Source: a virus
IMG/VR virus record: IMGVR_UViG_3300047480_000598
Location: 1-64,000 of that record
Length of the DNA: 64,000 nt
Reading direction: 5' to 3' (one strand)
Every line of letters begins with the position of its first letter. Position 1 is the first letter of the stretch. Of this stretch, positions 17,266-63,248 are shown piece by piece. Below the pieces are notes generated by a model. It was not told where the DNA came from, did not search any database, and saw only the letters and a list, made by a program, of their open reading frames with translations. Both the position numbers and the translations under genes were made by a program.

Positions 17266-18720
17266 CTAATTAAAAACTTTAACACCGTAATGGTGTTCGA
17301 ATGCTATTGCATCTTGATATGTATTAACCATCGGTTGTCCTTTAATATTTAAACTAGTGTTAAGTAATAAAGGACATCCAGTTTTCTCATACCATATTTC
17401 TAACAATCTTCGAATATGTCGATCGTCATTAGTTCCTACCGTTTGTACTCTGCTAGTACCGTCTTTGTGAATAATTGCAGGATATAAATTAGGATGTTTA
17501 CATCGAACAGTATATTGCATATATCTATGATCGTTACTTATTAGTTCGAAAATTTCGTCAGCATATTCTTCAAGTATCATAGGAGCAAACGGTCTAAATT
17601 CTTGCCGTTGTTTTATATTATTAACTCGATCTTTAATATCAATACCTCTAGGATCAGCTAATAAACTTCTATTACCGAACGCTCTAGGACCAAATTCAGC
17701 TTTGCCTCTTGCTACCCCACAAATTTGATTTTGTAACAAATATTCAACAATTTCTTCTTCAGTACTAGAATAGCCCATATCGTATCCTAAAAATGGACCT
17801 GGCCAATGCACATGTTTCCCTAAGTGAGCTAATACCGAACCCATGCTAGATCCTGCATCACCAGGATTTGGCATGATCCATACATTGTCAAATAATTTAT
17901 GTGCTATATCATTTGCTGCACAATTTAATGCACAACCGCCCATTAATACTAAATTTTTACTTTTACTTAATTTACGAGCACGTTGTAGTACTGAGTAAAA
18001 TAATGCTTCATAAGTGCTCTGGGTTCCTTTTGCAACGTCGAAATATCTACTAACTGGCGTATCAAGTCTCCAATCTAAACATCCTCGATGTAGATTCTTT
18101 TTAAAAGTTATTTTTTCAATATTATCAACAAAATCATCGAGGATAGTGAAATTGTAATTTCTATTACCATATGCAGCCATTCCCATTAGAATATACTCAT
18201 CTTCTAACGGTTTAAGTCCTAATCTCTGTGTCATAGCAGAGTACCAAAGTCCAATACTATGCGGGAACGATTGGCTCCACTTCTTCTTTAATTTACTATT
18301 TTGAGCGTCCCAGATAGTCGTAGTTTCAAATTCTCCGATTGCATCTAATACAACAATACATGCATTATCAAATTTGCTAGTATAGTATCCCCCAGCTGCA
18401 TGGCTAAGATGATGTGATGTAAACTTAACAGGGGCAGTAATTCCGTATGATTTAAGATAATTAACAATGTTATTATCTTTCCATTTCCATCCCTGACCCG
18501 CAAATAATTGTCGTATTGTTTTAAGATAGGGATTTTCATACCAAATAATTTCTTGAGGGTCTCCAAAAGTTAATGCATATTGGATAAGATCAGGATGCAA
18601 ATTACGATCATTTTTAACTCGACTAAATCTTTCGCTATGACTTGCAAATATTATTTTTTCGTCATAGAACACAGTAATCGCTGCATCATGACTATTTGCC
18701 GATATACCCCAAGTAATCAT
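17266..18720 (-). CDS. Carbamoyltransferase, NodU/TobZ/CmcH family (484 aa)
   Basis: Transfers a carbamoyl group from carbamoyl phosphate, via carbamoyl-AMP, to a hydroxyl of an acceptor. The N-terminal part (residues 1-300) has GISANSHDAAI, the His-rich HHLSHAAGGYY (about 103-113) that binds metal and adenylate in TobZ, and GMAAYG. The C-terminal Sua5/YrdC-like part has KAEFGPRAFGNRSLLADPR and LLLNTSLNIKGQP. Its ATG overlaps the stop of the 37-aa gene, so it is coupled to primase expression. Its place between primase and helicase hints at a role in DNA or nucleotide modification, but sugar or small-molecule acceptors are the usual substrates. The acceptor is not deducible. Confidence 0.88.
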   Translation of the reverse strand: MITWGISANSHDAAITVFYDEKIIFASHSERFSRVKNDRNLHPDLIQYALTFGDPQEIIWYENPYLKTIRQLFAGQGWKWKDNNIVNYLKSYGITAPVKFTSHHLSHAAGGYYTSKFDNACIVVLDAIGEFETTTIWDAQNSKLKKKWSQSFPHSIGLWYSAMTQRLGLKPLEDEYILMGMAAYGNRNYNFTILDDFVDNIEKITFKKNLHRGCLDWRLDTPVSRYFDVAKGTQSTYEALFYSVLQRARKLSKSKNLVLMGGCALNCAANDIAHKLFDNVWIMPNPGDAGSSMGSVLAHLGKHVHWPGPFLGYDMGYSSTEEEIVEYLLQNQICGVARGKAEFGPRAFGNRSLLADPRGIDIKDRVNNIKQRQEFRPFAPMILEEYADEIFELISNDHRYMQYTVRCKHPNLYPAIIHKDGTSRVQTVGTNDDRHIRRLLEIWYEKTGCPLLLNTSLNIKGQPMVNTYQDAIAFEHHYGVKVFN

Positions 18721-42322: not shown

Positions 42323-42658
42323 ATGAGACCGATATGTAAGTGCGGAGAACGTCCTAAAGCCGTTAATTATATTAAAGACGGACGAACATACTATCGAAAG
42401 CTATGCGAAGTATGTATGAAAAATGGGTTATATCACGGTATACCTCGATGGAAGAGGGCCGGATATAAGTTACACAAGTGTTGTGATAAATGTGGATTCA
42501 AATCCCCGTACAAAGAAGTGTTTTCAGTGTTTCATGTTGACGGGGATCTAAATAATTGCTCGTTTTTAAATCTTAAAACAGTTTGCGCAAATTGTCAACG
42601 AGTTCTAGCGAGAGAAGGGATTACTTGGAGACAGGGGGATCTTGTACCAGATCTTTAA
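42323..42658 (+). CDS. HNH-like zinc-binding protein, possible recombination endonuclease (111 aa)
   Basis: Cys pairs CKCGERP and KLCEVC (residues 5-40), CCDKCGF, then FHVDGDLNNCSFLNLKTVCANC (about 73-94). The last resembles HNH nucleases (His-x-Asp-Gly ... Asn ... Asn-Leu-x-x-x-Cys-x-x-Cys). T4 endonuclease VII has a related zinc-bound His-Asn site, so Holliday-junction resolution is a reasonable guess, but a general nicking or zinc-ribbon protein is equally possible. It is the only plus-strand gene between sheath and neck genes, and its end overlaps the kinase gene tail to tail. Confidence 0.65.
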   Translation: MRPICKCGERPKAVNYIKDGRTYYRKLCEVCMKNGLYHGIPRWKRAGYKLHKCCDKCGFKSPYKEVFSVFHVDGDLNNCSFLNLKTVCANCQRVLAREGITWRQGDLVPDL

Positions 42659-44339
42659 TAGATTGATATAGTTCATCAATAGTTCCATCATTTTCAATAG
42701 TCACATCAATGTTAGGCCCTATCCAAGACATTTCGCTTTCGTGAATTTTACGATACTTTAGTTTATCAGCTGCACCAGATTTGCCGATGTTTGCATCGTA
42801 CGCAAATTTATACCAATCTGGTTCTGGCCCTCGTTTTATACGAACTACAATTCCTCCAGCTTCTTTGAGTGCCTTAATTTCGTTAGGAAATCGACAATCT
42901 GTAATTACAATGTTGTCGTTACTAAATCGAAGTTTGTTTTCTACACTAGCGATCCATATGTCAGGATGAAATTGATGTCGAAGTATTTCTGTTCCCCAAT
43001 GCTGAAGTACAAATCTCGGAGTTATAGTCATATCCAACCTGTTTGACCACCATTCATCGGGCTCTTCTCGCCATTTTCTTGATTCAGCTGTGCGTCCTTC
43101 TAGTAAGACACGATCCCAACCAAATATTGCTGATACTGCATCTTTTAAAGAACTTGCAAAACTTTCCCTTCTAAAACCATGAAAATTAACTAAGTAATCG
43201 GCAACAGTATCTTTGCCTGACCCTATAAATCCGCATATACCTATAATCATATTTCCTCTAAATAAAAAGTGATATTTGTTATTTTTATATTCAAATCGAT
43301 CTTTAGTGTAAACTATTTTATCATCATATTGAACTACTAATTTTCCAGCTTCTATTATAACTGTGTAAAAGTCATCAAGAACATCTGAAAAGACTGTTTG
43401 ATCGTATAGATGATGTGTATTATAATTTATTTCTTGCACAAAAATTGGACCTGATGTGCTAGTCATTCCGAATAGAGATATAATAGATGCATGTTTATCA
43501 ACTACAAGATCAGTAACTTGCTCACGAGATGGCGATAATATTGTATATATTGTTAGATTTAGTAACGACGATGCTCGATTATACTTAATAAAATTATCTA
43601 TCATAGTATCAAACATTATGCATCGAGTTATACCATAATAACTAATGTAAGATGGCCAGATATTATTGTCATCATCGCACCAAAATTGATTTTTACAAAA
43701 CTTAAATGCTGGCAAAAAGAATAATGCTAAACTAGTACCATGATGTAATATTCTAGTATGCATACATCTATCGTTATTATCAATTTTGAAGAGCTTACCG
43801 TTTCTATGTAATAAACGGTAATAAAACTCATGGGAGTGTTCTTCAATTGCGTCCGATCGTATTTTTTGTGTGTATTTTTCGCTAATCGATCTTGTTAAAA
43901 TAGATGAATTGTTAGCCCATTTAATGTCTTTTTTCGAAGTATCTTGATATGTTTTAATAATATTCGCATCAATTGCAGTATCTTTATATGTATTTGTAAA
44001 CTCTAATAGATCTTTCTTATCGAATGGTACAATTACATGATCAATCTTTCCATATCGATTATTTAATTCTTTGTAGTTTGAGATTTTATGTGATACTGCA
44101 ATTACAAATACTAATCCTAATTCGGCACACGCATAAAACCATGGAGTATAATAATTTCCAAATGTAATGATAACTTGGTCTCCGGCTTTAACATTAACCT
44201 CTTTAATTAAATAAGTTTTTGCCCTATCAATTAACTCAATTAGCTCATCGTACTCAAAAATTAACTCTTTGTCGACTATATGTAATGATAGGTCAGAATT
44301 GATACAAGCTCGAGTTATTATTTTATCATTCGACGACAC
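42621..44339 (-). CDS. Fusion: degenerate acyl-adenylate ligase domain + deoxynucleoside monophosphate kinase (572 aa)
   Basis: GTG start after GAGG. Residues 1-363 align with the ANL protein at 44318-45613 (EELIDRAKTYLIKEVNVKAGDQVI; HTRILHHGT; IISLFGMTSTSGP), but its phosphate-binding Ser/Gly/Thr loop is absent, TE became TS, and TGD became TKD. The match stops at FRGN, the hinge before the C-terminal ANL lid. The next codon is ATG 43250, preceded by AGAGGAAAT, and starts a 209-residue kinase: GICGFIGSGKDTVADYL (P-loop), RESFASSLKDAV, ITDCRFPNE, as in T4 gp1. The kinase feeds dNTP synthesis and can be made alone from its own site. Confidence 0.85.
   Translation of the reverse strand: MSSNDKIITRACINSDLSLHIVDKELIFEYDELIELIDRAKTYLIKEVNVKAGDQVIITFGNYYTPWFYACAELGLVFVIAVSHKISNYKELNNRYGKIDHVIVPFDKKDLLEFTNTYKDTAIDANIIKTYQDTSKKDIKWANNSSILTRSISEKYTQKIRSDAIEEHSHEFYYRLLHRNGKLFKIDNNDRCMHTRILHHGTSLALFFLPAFKFCKNQFWCDDDNNIWPSYISYYGITRCIMFDTMIDNFIKYNRASSLLNLTIYTILSPSREQVTDLVVDKHASIISLFGMTSTSGPIFVQEINYNTHHLYDQTVFSDVLDDFYTVIIEAGKLVVQYDDKIVYTKDRFEYKNNKYHFLFRGNMIIGICGFIGSGKDTVADYLVNFHGFRRESFASSLKDAVSAIFGWDRVLLEGRTAESRKWREEPDEWWSNRLDMTITPRFVLQHWGTEILRHQFHPDIWIASVENKLRFSNDNIVITDCRFPNEIKALKEAGGIVVRIKRGPEPDWYKFAYDANIGKSGAADKLKYRKIHESEMSWIGPNIDVTIENDGTIDELYQSIKDLVQDPPVSK
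43248..43261 (-). promoter_or_regulatory. 1: Internal ribosome site and ATG of the nucleotide kinase
   Basis: AGAGGAAAT-ATG on the minus strand, inside a continuous frame. It makes independent production of a gp1-like deoxynucleoside monophosphate kinase likely, coding 42621-43250. Confidence 0.7.
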
Positions 44340-45613
44340 TTGATCCTCACGGCATTTGCATTAAACTTAACACCACTCATGAATCTACTTTTAGGAAGTG
44401 ATAGTTGTTTAGATATTTTATAATTACTTCCTAATAAAGTTTGTATATTTAGATTTAGTTCTTCTAAGTTTAGTTCACAAGTCGTTCTAAGATATATCTC
44501 ATTGAAAACAGAATCTATAACAATATCAAAATCGTTGATGTATTTTATGATAAGATTGTTTAGTAAATTAACATCAACGAGTTCATTGTTTATCGAATAT
44601 CTATTGCCTCGTCCTTGAAAGATCATACGATTGTCAATAACAGAAAACTGATCGCCCGTATCGATAATTTGACCCGACGGCATTGTTACTTGCAGCAAAT
44701 TATTTTTTATATTAATTTTGTAAAAATTATCAAGTAACTCCCCGAAATCGTTTGGTTGAAAAGAGAGTTTATTCTTATTGTTTAATTTTGACAAGAAAAT
44801 AGGACCCGATGTCTCAGTGCATCCGTACAGAGAAATAACTTCGATTCGATCATTAATTATTCGGTCAAAACCGTTGGGTAACTTTGATGCTACAAATATT
44901 GTAAAATTATAATCGATGTCATTGTCGAAGTTATTATGAATTGCATCTAGGTACTTTAAAAATACTAAACATCGATTGATTTTGTTCTCTTTTATAAACT
45001 TTACCCACTTATCTTTCTTACCGTCAAAGTAATAGTGATTTTTACAGGAAATGATGACCGGAAGGAAGTATACTCCTACAGTACTACTATGAGCTAAGGT
45101 TCGTGTATGAATGCATCTATCTTGCAGTTGTAAATTATATAACTTACTGTTACGATGCGCTAACTTATATAAAAAGTTATGTGTGTATTCGACAATTTTA
45201 GGATCGTTGGTCGACCCAGAACTTAAAGTTTCGATTAAAATCGAATCAGGTTCGGCCCAGTATTCATTTTGAAGCGAGGTGTCGGTCCAATCTAAAATTT
45301 CCCCAAAGTCTGATAATAAGTGGTCGATATTGCCGTATAACTTTAATGTGCTTTTAGATTCCTCTGCATTAGAATCAACGACAATAAACTTTAATCCAAG
45401 TTCGGCTCCTGCTAGAAACCAAATGAACAATCCGGGCCACTTGCTGTTTAAAATTAGAACACGCTGTCCTTTTTTAACTTGTTTAATTTTTATTAAGAAT
45501 GTTTTAGCACGATTGATATAATCAATAATATCATTATAACTGTAGTGGGTTTCTACAGTTTCAGAATTAACTGTAATATTAAGCTGTGAATTAAGTATTC
45601 TTCTTGTAATCAA
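44318..45613 (-). CDS. Acyl/aminoacyl-adenylate-forming enzyme, ANL superfamily (431 aa)
   Basis: Activates a carboxylate with ATP. Motifs in order: LSSGSTNDPKIVEYTH (phosphate-binding loop, near residue 132), HTRTLAHSS, VISLYGCTETSGP (YGxTE), IDTGDQF (TGD, ribose-binding) and GRGN (hinge). A C-terminal lid ends SRFMSGVKFNANAVRIKCRR, where a Lys may be catalytic. All core motifs are kept, unlike the fused paralogue downstream. It is shorter than typical CoA ligases (500+), closer to small adenylation domains. The start is a TTG overlapping the membrane protein gene by 23 bases; no ATG is available upstream. No carrier protein is visible nearby. Confidence 0.8.
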   Translation of the reverse strand: MITRRILNSQLNITVNSETVETHYSYNDIIDYINRAKTFLIKIKQVKKGQRVLILNSKWPGLFIWFLAGAELGLKFIVVDSNAEESKSTLKLYGNIDHLLSDFGEILDWTDTSLQNEYWAEPDSILIETLSSGSTNDPKIVEYTHNFLYKLAHRNSKLYNLQLQDRCIHTRTLAHSSTVGVYFLPVIISCKNHYYFDGKKDKWVKFIKENKINRCLVFLKYLDAIHNNFDNDIDYNFTIFVASKLPNGFDRIINDRIEVISLYGCTETSGPIFLSKLNNKNKLSFQPNDFGELLDNFYKINIKNNLLQVTMPSGQIIDTGDQFSVIDNRMIFQGRGNRYSINNELVDVNLLNNLIIKYINDFDIVIDSVFNEIYLRTTCELNLEELNLNIQTLLGSNYKISKQLSLPKSRFMSGVKFNANAVRIKCRRMIK

Positions 45614-45845
45614 GACTATTTTGCAACCATGCTTTGTAAGAAGGATTAGGATGATTTTCTAATCGCTGTTTATATAGCTTTATAACAATAAATGCTGCTG
45701 TACCTTTGAAGAAGAAAGGAAAGATTGCATGTATAATTGATGCTATTGCTGCATAGAATAGCAGAAAACCGGCATAGATTGCAAATTTTAGATGTTCAAA
45801 ATACGATGTTTGGCTGTCTTTTAAATGTTGTGTTAAAAATTTCAT
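45591..45845 (-). CDS. Small membrane protein, DUF6356-like (84 aa)
   Basis: Two hydrophobic segments (about residues 20-39 and 40-58: FAIYAGFLLFYAAIASIIH and AIFPFFFKGTAAFIVI) are joined by a His/Pro turn (IHAIFPF) and followed by a basic tail. The HxxFPF turn is typical of a small family of bacterial and phage membrane proteins of unknown function. It lies between gp13 and the ANL pair, overlapping each. It might anchor or transport a product of the ANL enzymes; this is only a guess from position. Confidence 0.65.
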   Translation of the reverse strand: MKFLTQHLKDSQTSYFEHLKFAIYAGFLLFYAAIASIIHAIFPFFFKGTAAFIVIKLYKQRLENHPNPSYKAWLQNSLDYKKNT

Positions 45846-46630
45846 TACCCAATAATAAATGTATAAGGAGTGCCGCCCGGAATATTTAACTCTATTTCCT
45901 TATCGAGTCTTTCAATTTCTTGATTGCCTTCTGTAATAAGTGCAGTTCCGTTTAGTGTAATACCGCCACTTGGCCCTGCGATGTTTCCAAATAAACTACG
46001 TGCTTGCCCTAACATAGTCTTACAGGTCGCTAATGTATAATCTTTAATCCATTGCTTTGCATAGATGTCTTGCAATAATACAAAGTCTGGACGAAAGTTA
46101 TGAGTTCTTAGAAGAATTTGCTCGCCTTGTGCAAACGGACGTTGTAAGATTGTTAAGATATGACTAGTTGGTTTCCATTTAAACTCAACAAAACTACCGA
46201 ACATTCTTCCTACTAACTTTTGATATCCTGCAAATAGCTCGTAAGTTGCTAAACCGCCCATCATAGTTCCGCTTAACAAATAAGTGTTAGTGTATGCTAA
46301 GTTGAATGGTTCAAATAAAGTACCACCTGCACCTAAGCCGCTTCTAGAACCAATAGATCTACGAAAAATAGATTGAACTTCGATTACTTCGTCAGGAAGT
46401 CTATACTCGTTCACATCCTGCATTAATTCGAGAAACATATAACTTTCTTCGACTGCATTTGAACTTCTTTGACGGAATCTAGTCAATGCTCTATCTAATG
46501 CTGTTTCGTAATGCTTAGGATCGAGCTCTACATCAATCATGCCGTCACCGAGCATATTTCTCACATAATCAAATACTTTATTTCTTTCAATTAACGAGGT
46601 TGATTCGTTGCTAGCTGGTAGATCATCCAT
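45845..46630 (-). CDS. 13: Neck protein, T4 gp13-like (261 aa)
   Basis: gp13 caps the filled head and joins it to the tail. The protein starts with DLPASNESTSLIERNKVFDYVRNMLGDGMIDVELDP and has ALDRALTRFRQRSSNAVEESYMFLEL, EYRLPDEVIEVQSIFRRSIGS and WIKDYTLATCKTMLGQARSLFGN, as in gp13 proteins of marine T4-like phages. Size is close to T4 (309). It is transcribed leftwards from one half of the palindromic double late promoter, with a 12-base leader containing GGAG. gp14 and gp15 read rightwards from the other half. Confidence 0.85.
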   Translation of the reverse strand: MDDLPASNESTSLIERNKVFDYVRNMLGDGMIDVELDPKHYETALDRALTRFRQRSSNAVEESYMFLELMQDVNEYRLPDEVIEVQSIFRRSIGSRSGLGAGGTLFEPFNLAYTNTYLLSGTMMGGLATYELFAGYQKLVGRMFGSFVEFKWKPTSHILTILQRPFAQGEQILLRTHNFRPDFVLLQDIYAKQWIKDYTLATCKTMLGQARSLFGNIAGPSGGITLNGTALITEGNQEIERLDKEIELNIPGGTPYTFIIG

Positions 46631-52277: not shown

Positions 52278-52900
52278 TGGAAGTTCTTAATCTATTTCCT
52301 ACTGAAGTTTTTGTTTTTAAAAATTTAACAATTGATAATTCTAATTTAATTATTAATCTAGAAAAGTTTGCAGACCAAGTTAAACAATCAAGTAACATAA
52401 GTTATATTAGAAATATTCATGATAAACAAGAAACTAAAGAATTGTTCGATTGGTGCAAAAATTGCTTAGAAGAAATTAGATTAAAGAATCGTTATGATTG
52501 TGATCAATTTGAAATTACAAGTAGTTGGTTTAATAGAGCATTACCAAATTCCGGAATGTGCCAAAATTACCACAGGCATTCTTTAAGTTTTTTTAGTGCT
52601 GTTTATTATCTTACCGACGGATCTCCTACTGTTTTTGAAGATCCTGTAATTCATAGAACACAAGCACAATTAGAAGTATTACGAAAAGATTTCAATCCAT
52701 ATGAATACATACAACCCGAGCCGGGAAAATTAGTAGTTTTTCCAAGTTGGCTGTATCACACTTCTTTACCTCATGTTACAGGTAAGGATAGATATATTAT
52801 CAGTTTTAACACTTTGCCGACGGGGTACGTAAATTATAATGTTGCTACAGATTCCGTTGCTCATATCACATTAGAAACTAAAGAAAAAAAATATGATTAA
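52277..52900 (+). CDS. 2OG-Fe(II) oxygenase-fold protein (207 aa)
   Basis: QNYHRHSLSFFSAVYYLTDG (about residues 97-116) gives the His-rich proximal site, PEPGKLVVFPSWLYHTSLPH the distal His, and KDRYIISFN the Arg-x-Ser of 2OG binding. It overlaps the first halogenase by eight bases. The family is close to TIGR02466. The proximal acid of the triad is not clear (H-R-H instead of H-x-D), as in several proteins of this cluster. Confidence 0.78.
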   Translation: MEVLNLFPTEVFVFKNLTIDNSNLIINLEKFADQVKQSSNISYIRNIHDKQETKELFDWCKNCLEEIRLKNRYDCDQFEITSSWFNRALPNSGMCQNYHRHSLSFFSAVYYLTDGSPTVFEDPVIHRTQAQLEVLRKDFNPYEYIQPEPGKLVVFPSWLYHTSLPHVTGKDRYIISFNTLPTGYVNYNVATDSVAHITLETKEKKYD

Positions 52901-54380
52901 TTCAGTATGTGTGTTAGGAGGAGGTAATGCAGGTCTAATGGCTGCACTTTATCTTAAAACTTCATTACCTGCATTAGATGTATTGCTTATTAAATCTAAA
53001 AAAATCGGTACAATCGGAGTCGGTGAAGGAAGTACAGAACATTGGTCAGCATTTGCCAATGCAGTTGGGATCAACATAGTCGATTTAATACAGCATTGTG
53101 GTGCTACTATTAAAATAGGTATAAAATTTGAAAATTGGCACGGAGATGGAACTAGTTATTTTCATAGTCTTCCGGAATTTTTAGCATCAATGCATTCATA
53201 CTCTGGTGCACCGTATACTTTAATGAGATTAATAGGCGACGGCATAGGAACTGAACAATTACATTGGGACTTACCGATGAAAGGATATGTTCGAGAACCG
53301 TTAACTGACTATTATCAATTTCATTTTGATAGTGAAAAACTAAATTTGTTTTTAGAAGATAGATGTAAGTTAATCGGAATTAAAATTATTGATACTGAGA
53401 TTGTTGGACCGGAATTAGACAATGAAGGATTTGTACAAAATATTGTCGATGTTAATAGCCGACGATTTTATGCTGATTTCTTCATCGACAGTAGTGGATT
53501 TAACAGAGTCATTGCTTCTAAATTAGGAGCAGAATGGGTTGATTGGTCAAAATATTTACCTTTGAATAGTGCCATTGCATTTCAAACAGCGTATGAAGAA
53601 GAGATCCCTCCCTATACTTTAGCAAAAGCTATGAGCAGTGGGTGGCATTGGAGAAGTCCAGTACAGGATCGATATGGAAACGGATATGTATTTAGTGACC
53701 ATTTTATCTCAGAGACACAAGCAATCGATGAAATTCAAAAACAGTTTAAAGATACCATTCATATCGGACGAAAAATAAACTATATCTCAGGGAAAGTTAA
53801 TCGAGCATGGATTAAAAATTGTGTGTCTATTGGACTTAGTAGTAATTTTGTTGAACCTTTAGAGGCGAGTAGTATTTCGACTACTATAAAACAACTACAG
53901 TTATTAACTACTACAATGTGGAATTGGTCTAAAGAAGATGTTAATGGAATTAAATCTTATAATGCAAACGTCGATGATATGATGAATAACATCTTAGACT
54001 TTATACAGCTTCATTATTTTACACAAAGAGATGATACTAATTTTTGGAAATGGTGTAAGAATGAGATTGTCATGACTGATTTTAATAAAGAAAATTTAGA
54101 ATATTTTAAGAAAAATTTTGTAAATCATGCATTATTACCCGAGGACAGTGTATTCCAGAATTATCGTATATATGATTGTTTAAATTGGATTCAAGTAATG
54201 CACGGGTTACGAATGTTTGATACTGCAAAAATTAAAGAATTATATGAAAAGCATTTTGGTTTTATGAGGTATGCAGATGAACAAAATATTTCTACAATTC
54301 AAAATAATAAAACCGACGAATGGATGACTTGTCGTGAAGCGATTAATTTTGTTAAGAATCCAAAGGTATATAAATTATGA
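52893..54380 (+). CDS. Flavin-dependent tryptophan-halogenase-like protein 1 (495 aa)
   Basis: FAD-binding GGGNAGLMAALYL (residues 8-20) and GVGEGSTEHW. The conserved Lys that forms the halogenating chloramine site in this family is likely the Lys in ATIKIGIKFENW (near residue 75). The catalytic Glu is in NFVEPLEASSI. The diagnostic WxWxIP reads WHWRSP here (near residue 250), so Ile is changed to Ser. The enzyme would add Cl or Br to an aromatic or indole substrate with reduced flavin supplied by a reductase, which is not seen in the window. It overlaps the next halogenase by ATGA. Confidence 0.82.
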   Translation: MINSVCVLGGGNAGLMAALYLKTSLPALDVLLIKSKKIGTIGVGEGSTEHWSAFANAVGINIVDLIQHCGATIKIGIKFENWHGDGTSYFHSLPEFLASMHSYSGAPYTLMRLIGDGIGTEQLHWDLPMKGYVREPLTDYYQFHFDSEKLNLFLEDRCKLIGIKIIDTEIVGPELDNEGFVQNIVDVNSRRFYADFFIDSSGFNRVIASKLGAEWVDWSKYLPLNSAIAFQTAYEEEIPPYTLAKAMSSGWHWRSPVQDRYGNGYVFSDHFISETQAIDEIQKQFKDTIHIGRKINYISGKVNRAWIKNCVSIGLSSNFVEPLEASSISTTIKQLQLLTTTMWNWSKEDVNGIKSYNANVDDMMNNILDFIQLHYFTQRDDTNFWKWCKNEIVMTDFNKENLEYFKKNFVNHALLPEDSVFQNYRIYDCLNWIQVMHGLRMFDTAKIKELYEKHFGFMRYADEQNISTIQNNKTDEWMTCREAINFVKNPKVYKL

Positions 54381-55882
54381 TTAACTCTTTGTGTATTTTG
54401 GGCGGGGGTACTAGTGGATTAGTCTCAGCATTAATACTTAGGAAAGGTTGGCCTGAACTTAAAATTACTATTATCGAAAGTTCAAAATATGGAATTGCCG
54501 GAGTTGGAGAAGGTAGTACCGAACATTGGAAGAACTTTATTCAGCATGTTGATATTACAATACCTGATTTAATCAGAGAGACAGATGCTACATTTAAAAT
54601 GGGTATTAAATTTACAAATTGGCATGGTGATAATACACACTATTTCCATAGTTTATCAGAACAATGGGGCGGTATAAGTAGAACTAATGGAGTTCCGTTT
54701 ACTTTTGCAAAACAAATTAGTGAAAATGTTGATCCGTTAGAAACAGCATGGCATTTATCTAAAAATAGTCGACATATTGAACCTTTACATGATATTCTTA
54801 GCCAATATCATTTTGATACATTTAAATTAAATGAATTTTTACATAAAAAATGTATCGAACGAAATATCGATATTATTGATACTGAAATTAATGACGTGAT
54901 CTTAGATAACGAAGGTCATGTGAAGTCGTTACTCGATTGTAATAATAACATTCATTCTTACGAATTTTATGTTGATTGCAGTGGATTTCGACGTGTAATA
55001 GGTTCTAAATTAGGGGCTAAATGGATTGATAGAAGTGCGCAATTACCGATGAACTCTGCAATTGCATTCCCTACCAGTTACAAAGAAGAAATTCCATCAT
55101 ATACAGAAGCTACCGCATTAAGTAGCGGTTGGTGTTGGCGAATTCCGACGCAAGAAAGATTTGGAAACGGTTATGTATTTTGTGATCAATTTATTACCGA
55201 AACTAAAGCATACGACGAAGTACAACAACATTACAAAAATTTAGGTATTAATGATTCGATAGACATTGGACGAACTTTCAAATTTCAAGCAGGATATGTT
55301 GATAAATTTTGGATTAAAAACTGTGTAATGGTGGGGCTATCAGGTGTATTCGTGGAGCCACTGGAAGCTAGTTCGATAGGAACAACAATTCAACAACTCT
55401 TTATATTAGTAGCATCTTTATTTTATTATGATCGAACCAATTCCAATACTGCTACTAGATATAACAAACATATGACTGAAATTTCTGAAAATATTATTGA
55501 TTTTATACAATTGCATTATTTTACTCAGCGTGAAGATACTGAGTTCTGGAAATGGTGTAAACACAACATTAAATTAACAGATTTTAACGCCGAAAATTTA
55601 GATCATTTTAAAAATGATTTTGTAAATGCACAATTTTTTGGAACTCCGATGGTATTGTTTTCTCAATTAAATTGGATTCAAGTAATGCATGGACTAAGGT
55701 TGTTTAATATTCCTGCACTAAAGGAGAAATATGATAAACATATGAAGGATATTTATACTTCGGTCGTAAACAATATAATGGAAGAAGATCGCGAATTTGT
55801 TAAAAAGAGGGAATCCTTTCCTCATCGTATTGCATTAGAAATGATTAAGGAGAGGTTCAATGAAGTTAAAATACAACTCTAA
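54377..55882 (+). CDS. Flavin-dependent tryptophan-halogenase-like protein 2 (501 aa)
   Basis: The most canonical of the three. GGGTSGLVSALIL (residues 8-20), GVGEGSTEHW, the Lys in ATFKMGIKFTNWHG, the intact WxWxIP as WCWRIP (about 253-258), and GVFVEPLEASSIGTT with the catalytic Glu. C-terminal HYFTQREDTEFWKWC is shared with protein 1, showing recent paralogy. It starts by ATGA overlap and ends 23 bases inside protein 3. The substrate is not predictable; free tryptophan, peptide or pyrrole are known ones in the family. Confidence 0.85.
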   Translation: MINSLCILGGGTSGLVSALILRKGWPELKITIIESSKYGIAGVGEGSTEHWKNFIQHVDITIPDLIRETDATFKMGIKFTNWHGDNTHYFHSLSEQWGGISRTNGVPFTFAKQISENVDPLETAWHLSKNSRHIEPLHDILSQYHFDTFKLNEFLHKKCIERNIDIIDTEINDVILDNEGHVKSLLDCNNNIHSYEFYVDCSGFRRVIGSKLGAKWIDRSAQLPMNSAIAFPTSYKEEIPSYTEATALSSGWCWRIPTQERFGNGYVFCDQFITETKAYDEVQQHYKNLGINDSIDIGRTFKFQAGYVDKFWIKNCVMVGLSGVFVEPLEASSIGTTIQQLFILVASLFYYDRTNSNTATRYNKHMTEISENIIDFIQLHYFTQREDTEFWKWCKHNIKLTDFNAENLDHFKNDFVNAQFFGTPMVLFSQLNWIQVMHGLRLFNIPALKEKYDKHMKDIYTSVVNNIMEEDREFVKKRESFPHRIALEMIKERFNEVKIQL

Positions 55883-57419
55883 AGTAGTTATTTTAGGAGG
55901 TGGAACAGCCGGATGGCTTACTGGTTTGTTTATAAGAAGAAATTGGCCGAATACATCTATCACTATTGTAGAAGATCCAAATAGACCTCCAATTATAGCA
56001 GGCGAAAGTGGAAATACTACGTTTCTTTCTTTATTAAGACATTTAAAAATTGATAATGACGAGTTTATTCGAGAGGTAAATGCTACACCTAAATTAGGAG
56101 GAAAATTTACAGACTGGAACGGAGTTGGAACAGAATTTATACATTGTTTGCAAACCGATTATGCTCCTTGGTTAGATGGTTGGACTGACTATGTAACTCA
56201 AAATATCGATAAGGACGATGACTTAACCTTAGGGTCATTAGTTAGTATCATGGACAACGAACGGTCTAAAGATGCTTATCTAAAAACTTTAATCGGAAAT
56301 AATATACCCTTAGCTGATGCATTTTTTGCTACATATTTTATTAAAGAAGATAAAGTTCCATTTGGATCATTGCTAGATATCCCGTGTATTCCGATGTGGC
56401 ATTTTGAAAGTCGAGGAGCTGCTGCATATTTTAAAAAAATTGGATTAGAAAGAAACATTACATTAGTCGAAGGGGAATACAAACATTCAATTCAATGTGA
56501 GAATGGAGATATTAGTAGCATCACATTAAATAACGGAGTTTCTTTAGAGGGGGATTGGTTTTTTGATTGTTCAGGATTTTCAAGGTTATTGCTTGGCGGT
56601 GTTTTAAAAGAGCCAATAGTAGATTACACGAATTATTTTCCTGCAAGATCAGTAGTTGCATGGTGGGATCAATCTTGCCCATGTGTTACAACTAATTCGA
56701 TAGCTATGAAATACGGCTGGTCTTGGAATATTAATATACGTTGTCGATCAGGAAATGGATATATCTACGATCCCGATCATATAAATCTCGATCAAGCAAT
56801 CGACGAAGTGAATCAGCGATTTAACCTTAAAATCGATCCTATTGCAAATTTCACATTTGTCCCCGGAATGATGCGTAAAGCATGGAAAAATAATGTTTTT
56901 GCCATAGGGTTAAGTAGCGGATTTTTAGAACCGTTAGAAGCAAATGGCATTGCTGTAATTGTAGAAAGTTTGTTCGGGTTACAAGATTATTGGAGTCCTT
57001 CTCAAAAAAATTATGAAAAATCGACTATAGATAGATTCAACGATCGTATTTGGTATATTACAGAAGATATTAGAGATTTCCTAACTTTACATTATCGAGG
57101 CCATCGTTCTGATAGTGATTTTTGGAGGAGTCATAATAATGACTCGTTTAGAGTACCTGATTCTCTAAAGGAAAAACTAAGTTTATGGGATCAGTTTTAT
57201 CAAGGAAAGGGACCAGAACCATATATAACCGGATATTCTCCTGCTGCTTGGTTAATGGTATTACAAGGATTAAAGATTTTTGACCATACTCGTATTGCTG
57301 ATTTAAATAAAAATTTATTACCGTTAGGTAAGAAGATACTAAATATCAATGAAAATAAATATAAGTCTATGGTTGATTCATGTTGGACTATACATCAATG
57401 GATTAAAAATATAAAATAA
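55860..57419 (+). CDS. Flavin-dependent tryptophan-halogenase-like protein 3, divergent (519 aa)
   Basis: GGGTAGWLTGLFI (residues 11-23), GESGNTTF in place of GxGEST, the Lys in ATPKLGGKFTDWNG, and GFLEPLEANGI. The motif WxWxIP reads WSWNIN (near residue 287), with Pro lost. It is more distant from proteins 1 and 2 than they are from each other, so it was probably acquired separately or split off earlier. The C-terminus has DFLTLHYRGHRSDSDFWR. A late octamer follows it for the next gene. Confidence 0.8.
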   Translation: MKLKYNSKVVILGGGTAGWLTGLFIRRNWPNTSITIVEDPNRPPIIAGESGNTTFLSLLRHLKIDNDEFIREVNATPKLGGKFTDWNGVGTEFIHCLQTDYAPWLDGWTDYVTQNIDKDDDLTLGSLVSIMDNERSKDAYLKTLIGNNIPLADAFFATYFIKEDKVPFGSLLDIPCIPMWHFESRGAAAYFKKIGLERNITLVEGEYKHSIQCENGDISSITLNNGVSLEGDWFFDCSGFSRLLLGGVLKEPIVDYTNYFPARSVVAWWDQSCPCVTTNSIAMKYGWSWNINIRCRSGNGYIYDPDHINLDQAIDEVNQRFNLKIDPIANFTFVPGMMRKAWKNNVFAIGLSSGFLEPLEANGIAVIVESLFGLQDYWSPSQKNYEKSTIDRFNDRIWYITEDIRDFLTLHYRGHRSDSDFWRSHNNDSFRVPDSLKEKLSLWDQFYQGKGPEPYITGYSPAAWLMVLQGLKIFDHTRIADLNKNLLPLGKKILNINENKYKSMVDSCWTIHQWIKNIK

Positions 57420-61940: not shown

Positions 61941-62652
61941 GATTAATCCTATATATATTTCTATCAATAGAGTTAGTCGGTAATTCTGTAGGGAATCTAT
62001 TCCAACAAGGAATACTCATACTTAGTCTCTTTGTGGTTGGATTTGCAACGTGGAAACATCTAGATGGTATATACAATCCATCGCCGGGTGTTAAAACTAC
62101 ATCGATTGCAAGATCTAATTCATCTTCTTGAATTAAGTTATTCATTATTCCTGTTCGATGCATATACGATATTCTATTATTAAATACCTTCCAGTGTGTT
62201 TCTCCTTCTACTTGAATAATAAAGTTACACGGGTAATCGTCATGGATAGGAAACGAAGTCGAAGAACCTAATCCGCAATACACATGAATAGCAGCATTCA
62301 CACTAAACATCTTTTCAAATATCGATAATAAATGATTTGTTTTTTCGCTATAGAATCCATAATTTGTTATTACAAGTCCGTATCCTTGATTAACTTTACT
62401 AAACATGAATTCTTTATCCTGCACTTTTCGATCCCATATCCATGCTTTAGAATGCTCAGGGATTTCAATCTTCGAATTCGTTTCTGGATCAATCAGTTCA
62501 AATGTATATAGTTCAGGTCTATTTAAACAATTTTCAACATCAGACCATGTAAGAAGATCATTAGAATTAGGTAGTAAATTTTTAAAAAAATGAGGGTTAT
62601 CATTAGTTAATAAATTTGTCTCATTTAATATACGTTGACCTAAATAATTCAT
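61927..62652 (-). CDS. JmjC/cupin-type oxygenase-fold protein (241 aa)
   Basis: SFPIHDDYPCNFIIQVEGETHWKVF (about residues 137-161) holds the JmjC-style His-x-Asp (HDD) and the Trp of the beta core. VLTPGDGLYIPSRCFHVANP supplies the distal His. Related enzymes hydroxylate ribosomal proteins, transcription factors or small molecules. It differs from its neighbours, which are of the P4H/TIGR02466 type, so the operon mixes at least three oxygenase subfamilies. Confidence 0.8.
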   Translation of the reverse strand: MNYLGQRILNETNLLTNDNPHFFKNLLPNSNDLLTWSDVENCLNRPELYTFELIDPETNSKIEIPEHSKAWIWDRKVQDKEFMFSKVNQGYGLVITNYGFYSEKTNHLLSIFEKMFSVNAAIHVYCGLGSSTSFPIHDDYPCNFIIQVEGETHWKVFNNRISYMHRTGIMNNLIQEDELDLAIDVVLTPGDGLYIPSRCFHVANPTTKRLSMSIPCWNRFPTELPTNSIDRNIYRINHEHI

Positions 62653-63248
62653 TCTTCTGTCCTAATTAATTTTACATTGAACGCTACTGATATTCTATCA
62701 TCTTTAGTTGGGTTATGACCAACTCCGTGAGGCAAATGCCCTGGAAACATTACTAATCTTCCGGTCATTGCTTCATATGTTATAGCACTTGCACTAATAG
62801 GTGTATAATTTTTAATTATAGCTTGAGAACTTACAATATAATCGAGTGCATGATTTTTGTAGAAGGTAATATTTCCTTGTCCGGGTTTTGCTTTAACATA
62901 AAAGCAACCGGATAGAAAAGAATTATCGTGAATGTGTACCGAATTACTATTTCCGAAATTGTTAATATTAAACCAAAAATTTTCAATTTTAAGTTTACAA
63001 TAATCTTCATTATACCCGTAATCTCTAATACAATTTTCAGATTGAATTAAAATTTTATCCTCTAACTCTTGCATCTCGGCATAAAGTCCTGGTCGGAAAT
63101 CTTTGCTTTGCCATCCGCCTTCATTGCTTAGTTTTCTTCCTTCCTGATCCGCGTCTCTCATCGTTAAACATAATGATAAAATCGGTTCTGGGTCTATCGA
63201 TGATTGTTCCCACCAAATAGGTGTCGGAAAGTATAGATCATAATTCAT
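62649..63248 (-). CDS. 2OG-Fe(II) oxygenase-fold protein, TIGR02466-like (199 aa)
   Basis: SNSVHIHDNSFLSGCFYVKAKPGQG (about residues 104-128; HIHD metal site, 'NSxLSG' setting). RLVMFPGHLPHGVGHNP gives the distal His and DRISVAFNVKL the Arg-x-Ser. ATGA overlaps both neighbours. It shares the start pattern (YDLYFPTPIW) with TIGR02466 proteins. Confidence 0.82.
   Translation of the reverse strand: MNYDLYFPTPIWWEQSSIDPEPILSLCLTMRDADQEGRKLSNEGGWQSKDFRPGLYAEMQELEDKILIQSENCIRDYGYNEDYCKLKIENFWFNINNFGNSNSVHIHDNSFLSGCFYVKAKPGQGNITFYKNHALDYIVSSQAIIKNYTPISASAITYEAMTGRLVMFPGHLPHGVGHNPTKDDRISVAFNVKLIRTEE

Follow-up and report, generated by a model that had tools for sequence, protein, structure and literature searches.

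A degenerate adenylation core without a lid domain is joined in frame to a T4 gp1-like deoxynucleoside monophosphate kinase in a viral contig

Introduction

Phage deoxynucleoside monophosphate (dNMP) kinases of the T4 gp1 type (phrog_139; PF21448) are complete P-loop domains. In the jumbo Xanthomonas phage XaC1 the kinase is free-standing between the neck and sheath genes, with the annotated 'neck protein' one small gene upstream of it, and in the jumbo phage Phosso the kinase is located ahead of the sheath gene. The closest precedent in design for a second enzyme placed within an adenylating protein comes from NRPS, in whose interrupted adenylation domains (e.g. KtzH) the additional enzyme lies between a8 and a9 and both activities are kept (PMC11355689). 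Insertion at the hinge can also link a reporter to the binding of a ligand (PMC10590383). No description of a fusion between a dNMP kinase and an ANL domain was found in the open-access literature. A match to a 'thymidylate synthase'-kinase of Bacillus phage BM15 was rejected, as it is an annotation label and not a fusion.

Here we describe a locus in a 64,000-nucleotide stretch of viral DNA (positions 1 to 64,000 of IMG/VR record IMGVR_UViG_3300047480_000598; hereafter the window). Its kinase is likewise a complete P-loop domain encoded ahead of the tail sheath, like those of XaC1 and Phosso, but it is preceded in frame by a 363-residue degenerate ANL core, whereas the kinases of all relatives examined stand alone. 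This core, ANL2, is a clear paralogue of the neighbouring ANL superfamily (PF00501) protein ANL1, but in it the A3 loop, the Glu of A5, the Gly of A7 and the entire C-terminal lid are missing. Interrupted adenylation domains and ANL2-kinase both carry a second enzyme near the ANL hinge in one polypeptide. However, the interrupted domains keep adenylation and the lid around a methyltransferase, and since ANL2 has lost the lid and the ATP-site motifs and its core looks dead, ANL2-kinase falls outside that class.

The fused reading frame and its junction

In this ORF the ANL core continues, uninterrupted by a stop codon, into a complete gp1-like dNMP kinase (Table 1). The first-pass annotation of this DNA had placed the two parts in one frame, and the frame is indeed open over all 572 codons. 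Contig IMGVR_UViG_3300047483_000341 is 100% identical to the window across the junction (0 differences over 7,776 bp), and contig L085 shares 6,073 identical bp with it on the upstream flank. By the test that these contigs allow, the junction does not appear to be the error of a single contig.

Table 1. Positions of the features of the ANL2-kinase locus in the window
Feature	Position	Strand	Remarks
Small opposite-strand gene	42323..42658	+	shares 38 bp with kinase 3' end; weak similarity to HNH, PHROG E about 0.05
ANL2-kinase fusion ORF	42621..44339	-	572 aa, GTG start, without internal stop; same DNA in contig L004
dNMP kinase (T4 gp1-like)	42621..43250	-	209 aa with own ATG; intact P-loop GFIGSGKDT; free-standing in 127 relatives
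ANL2	43251..44339	-	degenerate lid-less adenylation core, 363 residues; weak acyl-CoA ligase matches
Kinase Shine-Dalgarno AGAGGA	43254..43259	-	codons of ANL2 R361-G362; -6.0 kcal/mol with anti-Shine-Dalgarno
Promoter-like TTTACA-17-TATAAA	43284..43312	-	10 of 12, inside ANL2 3' end; weak candidate only
A7 motif position in ANL2	43293..43310	-	YTKDRF in place of TGD; Asp kept, Gly lost (alignment)
A5 motif position in ANL2	43449..43472	-	FGMTSTSG in place of YGxTE (alignment)
ANL1	44318..45613	-	431-aa paralogue of full length, with A3/A5/A7 and lid; PF00501 E 1e-16
DUF6356 protein	45591..45845	-	first cassette gene; ATG overlaps neck-gene stop; PF19883 E 6e-17
Neck-type gene	45845..46630	-	borders kinase in relatives (synteny)

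ANL2 (residues 1-363) is 35% identical to ANL1 (E 7e-49), and it belongs to the ANL superfamily through this homology, ANL1 itself being an AMP-binding protein (PF00501). When searched alone, ANL2 gave only weak matches to acyl-CoA ligase models (3.5e-4) and reached no family in Pfam. The AlphaFold models of ANL2, built on a two-row alignment, and of ANL1, built on its single sequence, had mean pLDDT of 45 and 32, which is below the quality needed for a fold search.

Alignment to ANL1 bore out the motif losses proposed earlier for the Ser/Gly/Thr loop, the YGxTE Glu and the TGD Gly. Active ANL enzymes have a Ser/Thr-Gly-rich A3 phosphate loop ending in PK, and LSSGSTNDPK of ANL1 stands against SISEKYTQKIRSD in ANL2 in the pairwise alignment. 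The Glu of the A5 motif YGxTE is changed to Ser (YGCTE in ANL1, FGMTS in ANL2), and TGD of A7 is TKD, with Lys for Gly and the Asp retained. The C-terminal lid with the A10 Lys is missing, and RGN runs directly into the kinase. From these changes, ANL2 is predicted to be catalytically dead. A block near the presumed acyl pocket (A4 region; HRNxKL..DRCxHTR.L.H..FLP) is 48% identical between ANL2 and ANL1, against 35% overall; because this block is better kept than the whole, ANL2 could have a role in binding or as a partner.

The coding frame of ANL2 has also been kept. Over 332 aligned codons, the identity of ANL2 and ANL1 at the three codon positions was 0.50/0.60/0.37; the third-position value is near the chance level of 0.30, and synonymous sites are near saturation. 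No stop was observed in 363 codons of ANL2, whereas about 24 would be expected had it drifted neutrally to the same divergence. This indicates that ANL2 was under selection, and not junk, for most of its history, although the signal could date from before the truncation.

The kinase part, residues 364-572, matches phrog_139 deoxynucleoside monophosphate kinase (E 1e-52 and 8e-54), Pfam DNMK PF21448 (4e-12) and the T4 structure 1DEK. By its P-loop (GxxGSGKDT), its family profile and its syntenic position between neck and sheath genes, this part is assigned to the gp1-like dNMP kinases. The kinase had been reported to begin with an ATG of its own, and AGAGGA-AAT-ATG was found at this start. The pairing energy of this Shine-Dalgarno sequence is in the best 3% among 165 internal in-frame ATGs of long genes in the window. 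Pairing in the relatives is slightly stronger at the median (-7.3 vs -6.0 kcal/mol), and the spacing to the ATG in the window (GAGG + 4 nt) is below that usual in them. The region around the start has less structure than the corresponding region of 97% of the relatives. The strong Shine-Dalgarno sequence and the scarcity of structure make it likely that a free 24 kDa kinase is produced from the ATG at 43250. ANL2 itself, which shares 22 bp with the ANL1 3' end, has a usable Shine-Dalgarno sequence of its own (-6.0 kcal/mol) at its start, GTG 44339. As no stop codon intervenes, ribosomes that start at this GTG must make the 64 kDa fusion, so that both products are expected.

The ANL part had been said to end exactly at the hinge, with FRGN where ANL1 has GRGN. 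The alignment does finish RGN/RGN just before the kinase Met, but this is weaker evidence than it looks, because the in-frame AGAGGA ribosome-binding site itself encodes the RG of FRGN. The match at the very end of ANL2 may therefore derive from the ribosome-binding site. We conjecture that a microhomology deletion between the hinge codon pair and a native AGGAGA-type Shine-Dalgarno sequence of the kinase would yield exactly this junction. The in-frame relation by itself is about a 1-in-3 event. The ANL homology is certain and, together with the rank of the internal Shine-Dalgarno sequence, amounts to more than chance.

The locus in related viruses

Relatives were collected as viral contigs from kinase-based and neck-gene-based scans, which gave 127 distinct kinase-bearing contigs. 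A survey of relatives had been called for to see whether the fusion is conserved, and it was present in none (0/127). In all 127 the kinase is free-standing and starts at the same Met, and a stop lies in frame 0-38 codons before it. No ANL gene was found at the kinase loci of the relatives, none of them has both domains, and 34 whole records of relatives, many of which are fragments, had no AMP-binding match.

The conserved gene order is neck gene, kinase, small opposite-strand gene and tail sheath. The small gene, a 111-aa Cys-rich ORF antisense to the kinase 3' end, keeps its position in nearly all relatives. In near relatives about 58 bp separate the neck stop from the kinase ATG. This gap holds a strong conserved sigma70-type promoter (TTGACc-N17-TATACT), which scored 10-12 of 12 in 60 of the 65 neck-selected leaders. 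In most near relatives (L098-L177), this promoter, about 58 bp before the kinase ATG and between two structural genes, is very strongly conserved, spacer included (TTGACCTTGTAATAAAACTGTTATATACTAG). In the window, the gap between neck and kinase genes holds a 2.6 kb AT-rich cassette, DUF6356-ANL1-ANL2, in place of the ~58 bp, and the canonical kinase promoter is absent from it. The best remaining match is TTTACA-17-TATAAA; a score of 10 or more of 12 is also reached by about 7% of shuffles.

The GC content of the ANL genes is 29-32%, against 38% for the neck, kinase and sheath genes. Searches with short conserved peptides or tblastn (five queries on viral contigs) detected no relatives of ANL1 or ANL2 in viral, phage, plasmid and genome collections save the same virus, and the profile matches imply that remoter ANL relatives exist. 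The single genome match to the ANL query, in Paenibacillus (L084), was an AraC-like protein and was rejected as false. A carrier-protein domain (PF00550) was not found across the 162 kb record.

Other inserts of 0.4-5.1 kb occupy the slot between neck and kinase genes in further relatives, and these comparisons mark the slot as a hotspot for accessory genes. An accessory ORF of 173-431 codons runs up to the kinase in 18 relatives, where its stop and the kinase start share an ATGA, out of frame. In these ATGA-coupled loci (L005, L012, L036 and others), as in the window, the 3' end of an accessory gene in the same slot bears the ribosome-binding site of the kinase; unlike ANL2, the accessory ORFs stop out of frame and no fusion results. 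Since about one in three inserts ending at the kinase start would be in frame, the in-frame state alone is no sign of design. One ORF with an ATGA overlap, present in many relatives (L005:5480-6004, also in L012, L036, L058 and others), resembles a DEDD exonuclease by eye (DLMIDLEGLATGPD...). The larger inserts include a Cys-rich, radical-SAM-like ORF, and L069:4900-5988 is among the slot loci. The largest insert seen, in L175, gives a gap of 5,132 bp, and there the kinase promoter is still beside the kinase.

The kinase of the window is 57-67% identical to those of neck-close relatives, whose neck genes average 78%, and its branch is 0.93-1.2 long, against 0.12 for the neck gene. Grouping of the window kinase with those of L032, L011 and L072 was not rejected (p-AU 0.1). 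Faster evolution of the kinase as a sign of altered constraint was considered and dropped: unfused kinases of neck-close relatives are equally divergent (29% of pairs), and the divergence is thus no evidence that fusion changed the kinase. In L105, L107, L108, L110, L112 and L155, the mean identity is about 63-65% for the kinases and about 77% for the neck genes. These comparisons suggest frequent replacement or fast evolution of the kinase at this locus.

Discussion

Our data point, with fair but not high confidence, to a lineage-specific insertion in which a truncated pseudo-ANL was joined in frame to the kinase by chance, giving a 64 kDa fusion and an internally initiated 24 kDa kinase. In this scheme, an accessory cassette of DUF6356, ANL1 and a duplicated ANL2 would have entered the gap that separates the neck and dNMP kinase genes. 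The duplicated ANL2 would have lost its ATP-site motifs and lid, the promoter and leader of the kinase would have been replaced by the cassette, and the truncated end of ANL2 would have joined the kinase in frame. The last ANL2 codons, AGA GGA AAT, would then act as the ribosome-binding site of the kinase. The GTG at 44339 would lead to the pseudo-ANL-kinase fusion, unavoidable if this start is used, and the internal ATG would give the free kinase, which is the most likely source of ordinary dNMP kinase function. The locus would be a clear case of a hotspot accessory cassette capturing a core gene, displacing its promoter, lending it a ribosome-binding site from its own codons and creating an in-frame fusion.

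The first-pass annotation had left the choice between a remnant, with the kinase translated from a start of its own, and a true bifunctional or regulatory fusion. The former fits best, given the free kinase at the same Met in every relative and the strong unstructured start, but without a stop codon the fusion is to be expected too. In favour of the latter is the selection that held the ANL2 frame open through most of its past, but the fusion is not conserved and any regulation of the kinase is hypothetical. A functional fusion serving regulation or scaffolding, in which the dead ANL core, by binding ANL1 or an acyl or nucleotide ligand, modulates the kinase or directs its location, would agree with the open frame held through most of the divergence of ANL2, with the better-kept A4-region block, and with the enzymes that work near ANL hinges elsewhere (PMC11355689) and the hinge insertions that can report ligands (PMC10590383). 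However, it is conserved in no relative, the kinase keeps its own ribosome-binding site, the selection signal may be older than the truncation, and the divergence of the kinase, equalled by unfused kinases, lends no support; we regard such a role as rather unlikely. One form of it, which we hold to be doubtful, is a two-isoform kinase: the pseudo-adenylating domain with its acyl pocket, possibly pairing with ANL1, would sense a metabolite and tune the dNMP kinase, and the internal start would give an unregulated kinase. If the fused domain does act as a regulator, no earlier case of a pseudo-ANL sensor on a nucleotide kinase is known to us.

It seems improbable that ANL2 is only a recent, decaying, pseudogene-like leftover, an N-terminal extension without a role. 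All ATP-site motifs and the lid are gone together and no relative keeps ANL2, but its 363 codons have no frameshift or stop and its start retains a usable Shine-Dalgarno sequence. That an assembly or sequencing artefact deleted a stop codon or the ANL2 lid is very improbable. A single haplotype is known, and the two records may stem from related samples; yet the second contig is identical across the junction, L085 agrees upstream of it, and both flanking genes are intact.

Other genes in the window

Three tandem genes of the tryptophan halogenase family (PF04820, E 1e-84 to 1e-98) are located at 52893-57419 on the plus strand. Short ORFs resembling 2OG-Fe(II) oxygenases adjoin them, and the one that was checked (62652-63248) matches PF13759. 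A complete carbamoyltransferase gene (PF02543 and PF16861) at 17266-18720 on the minus strand adjoins a helicase-like gene.
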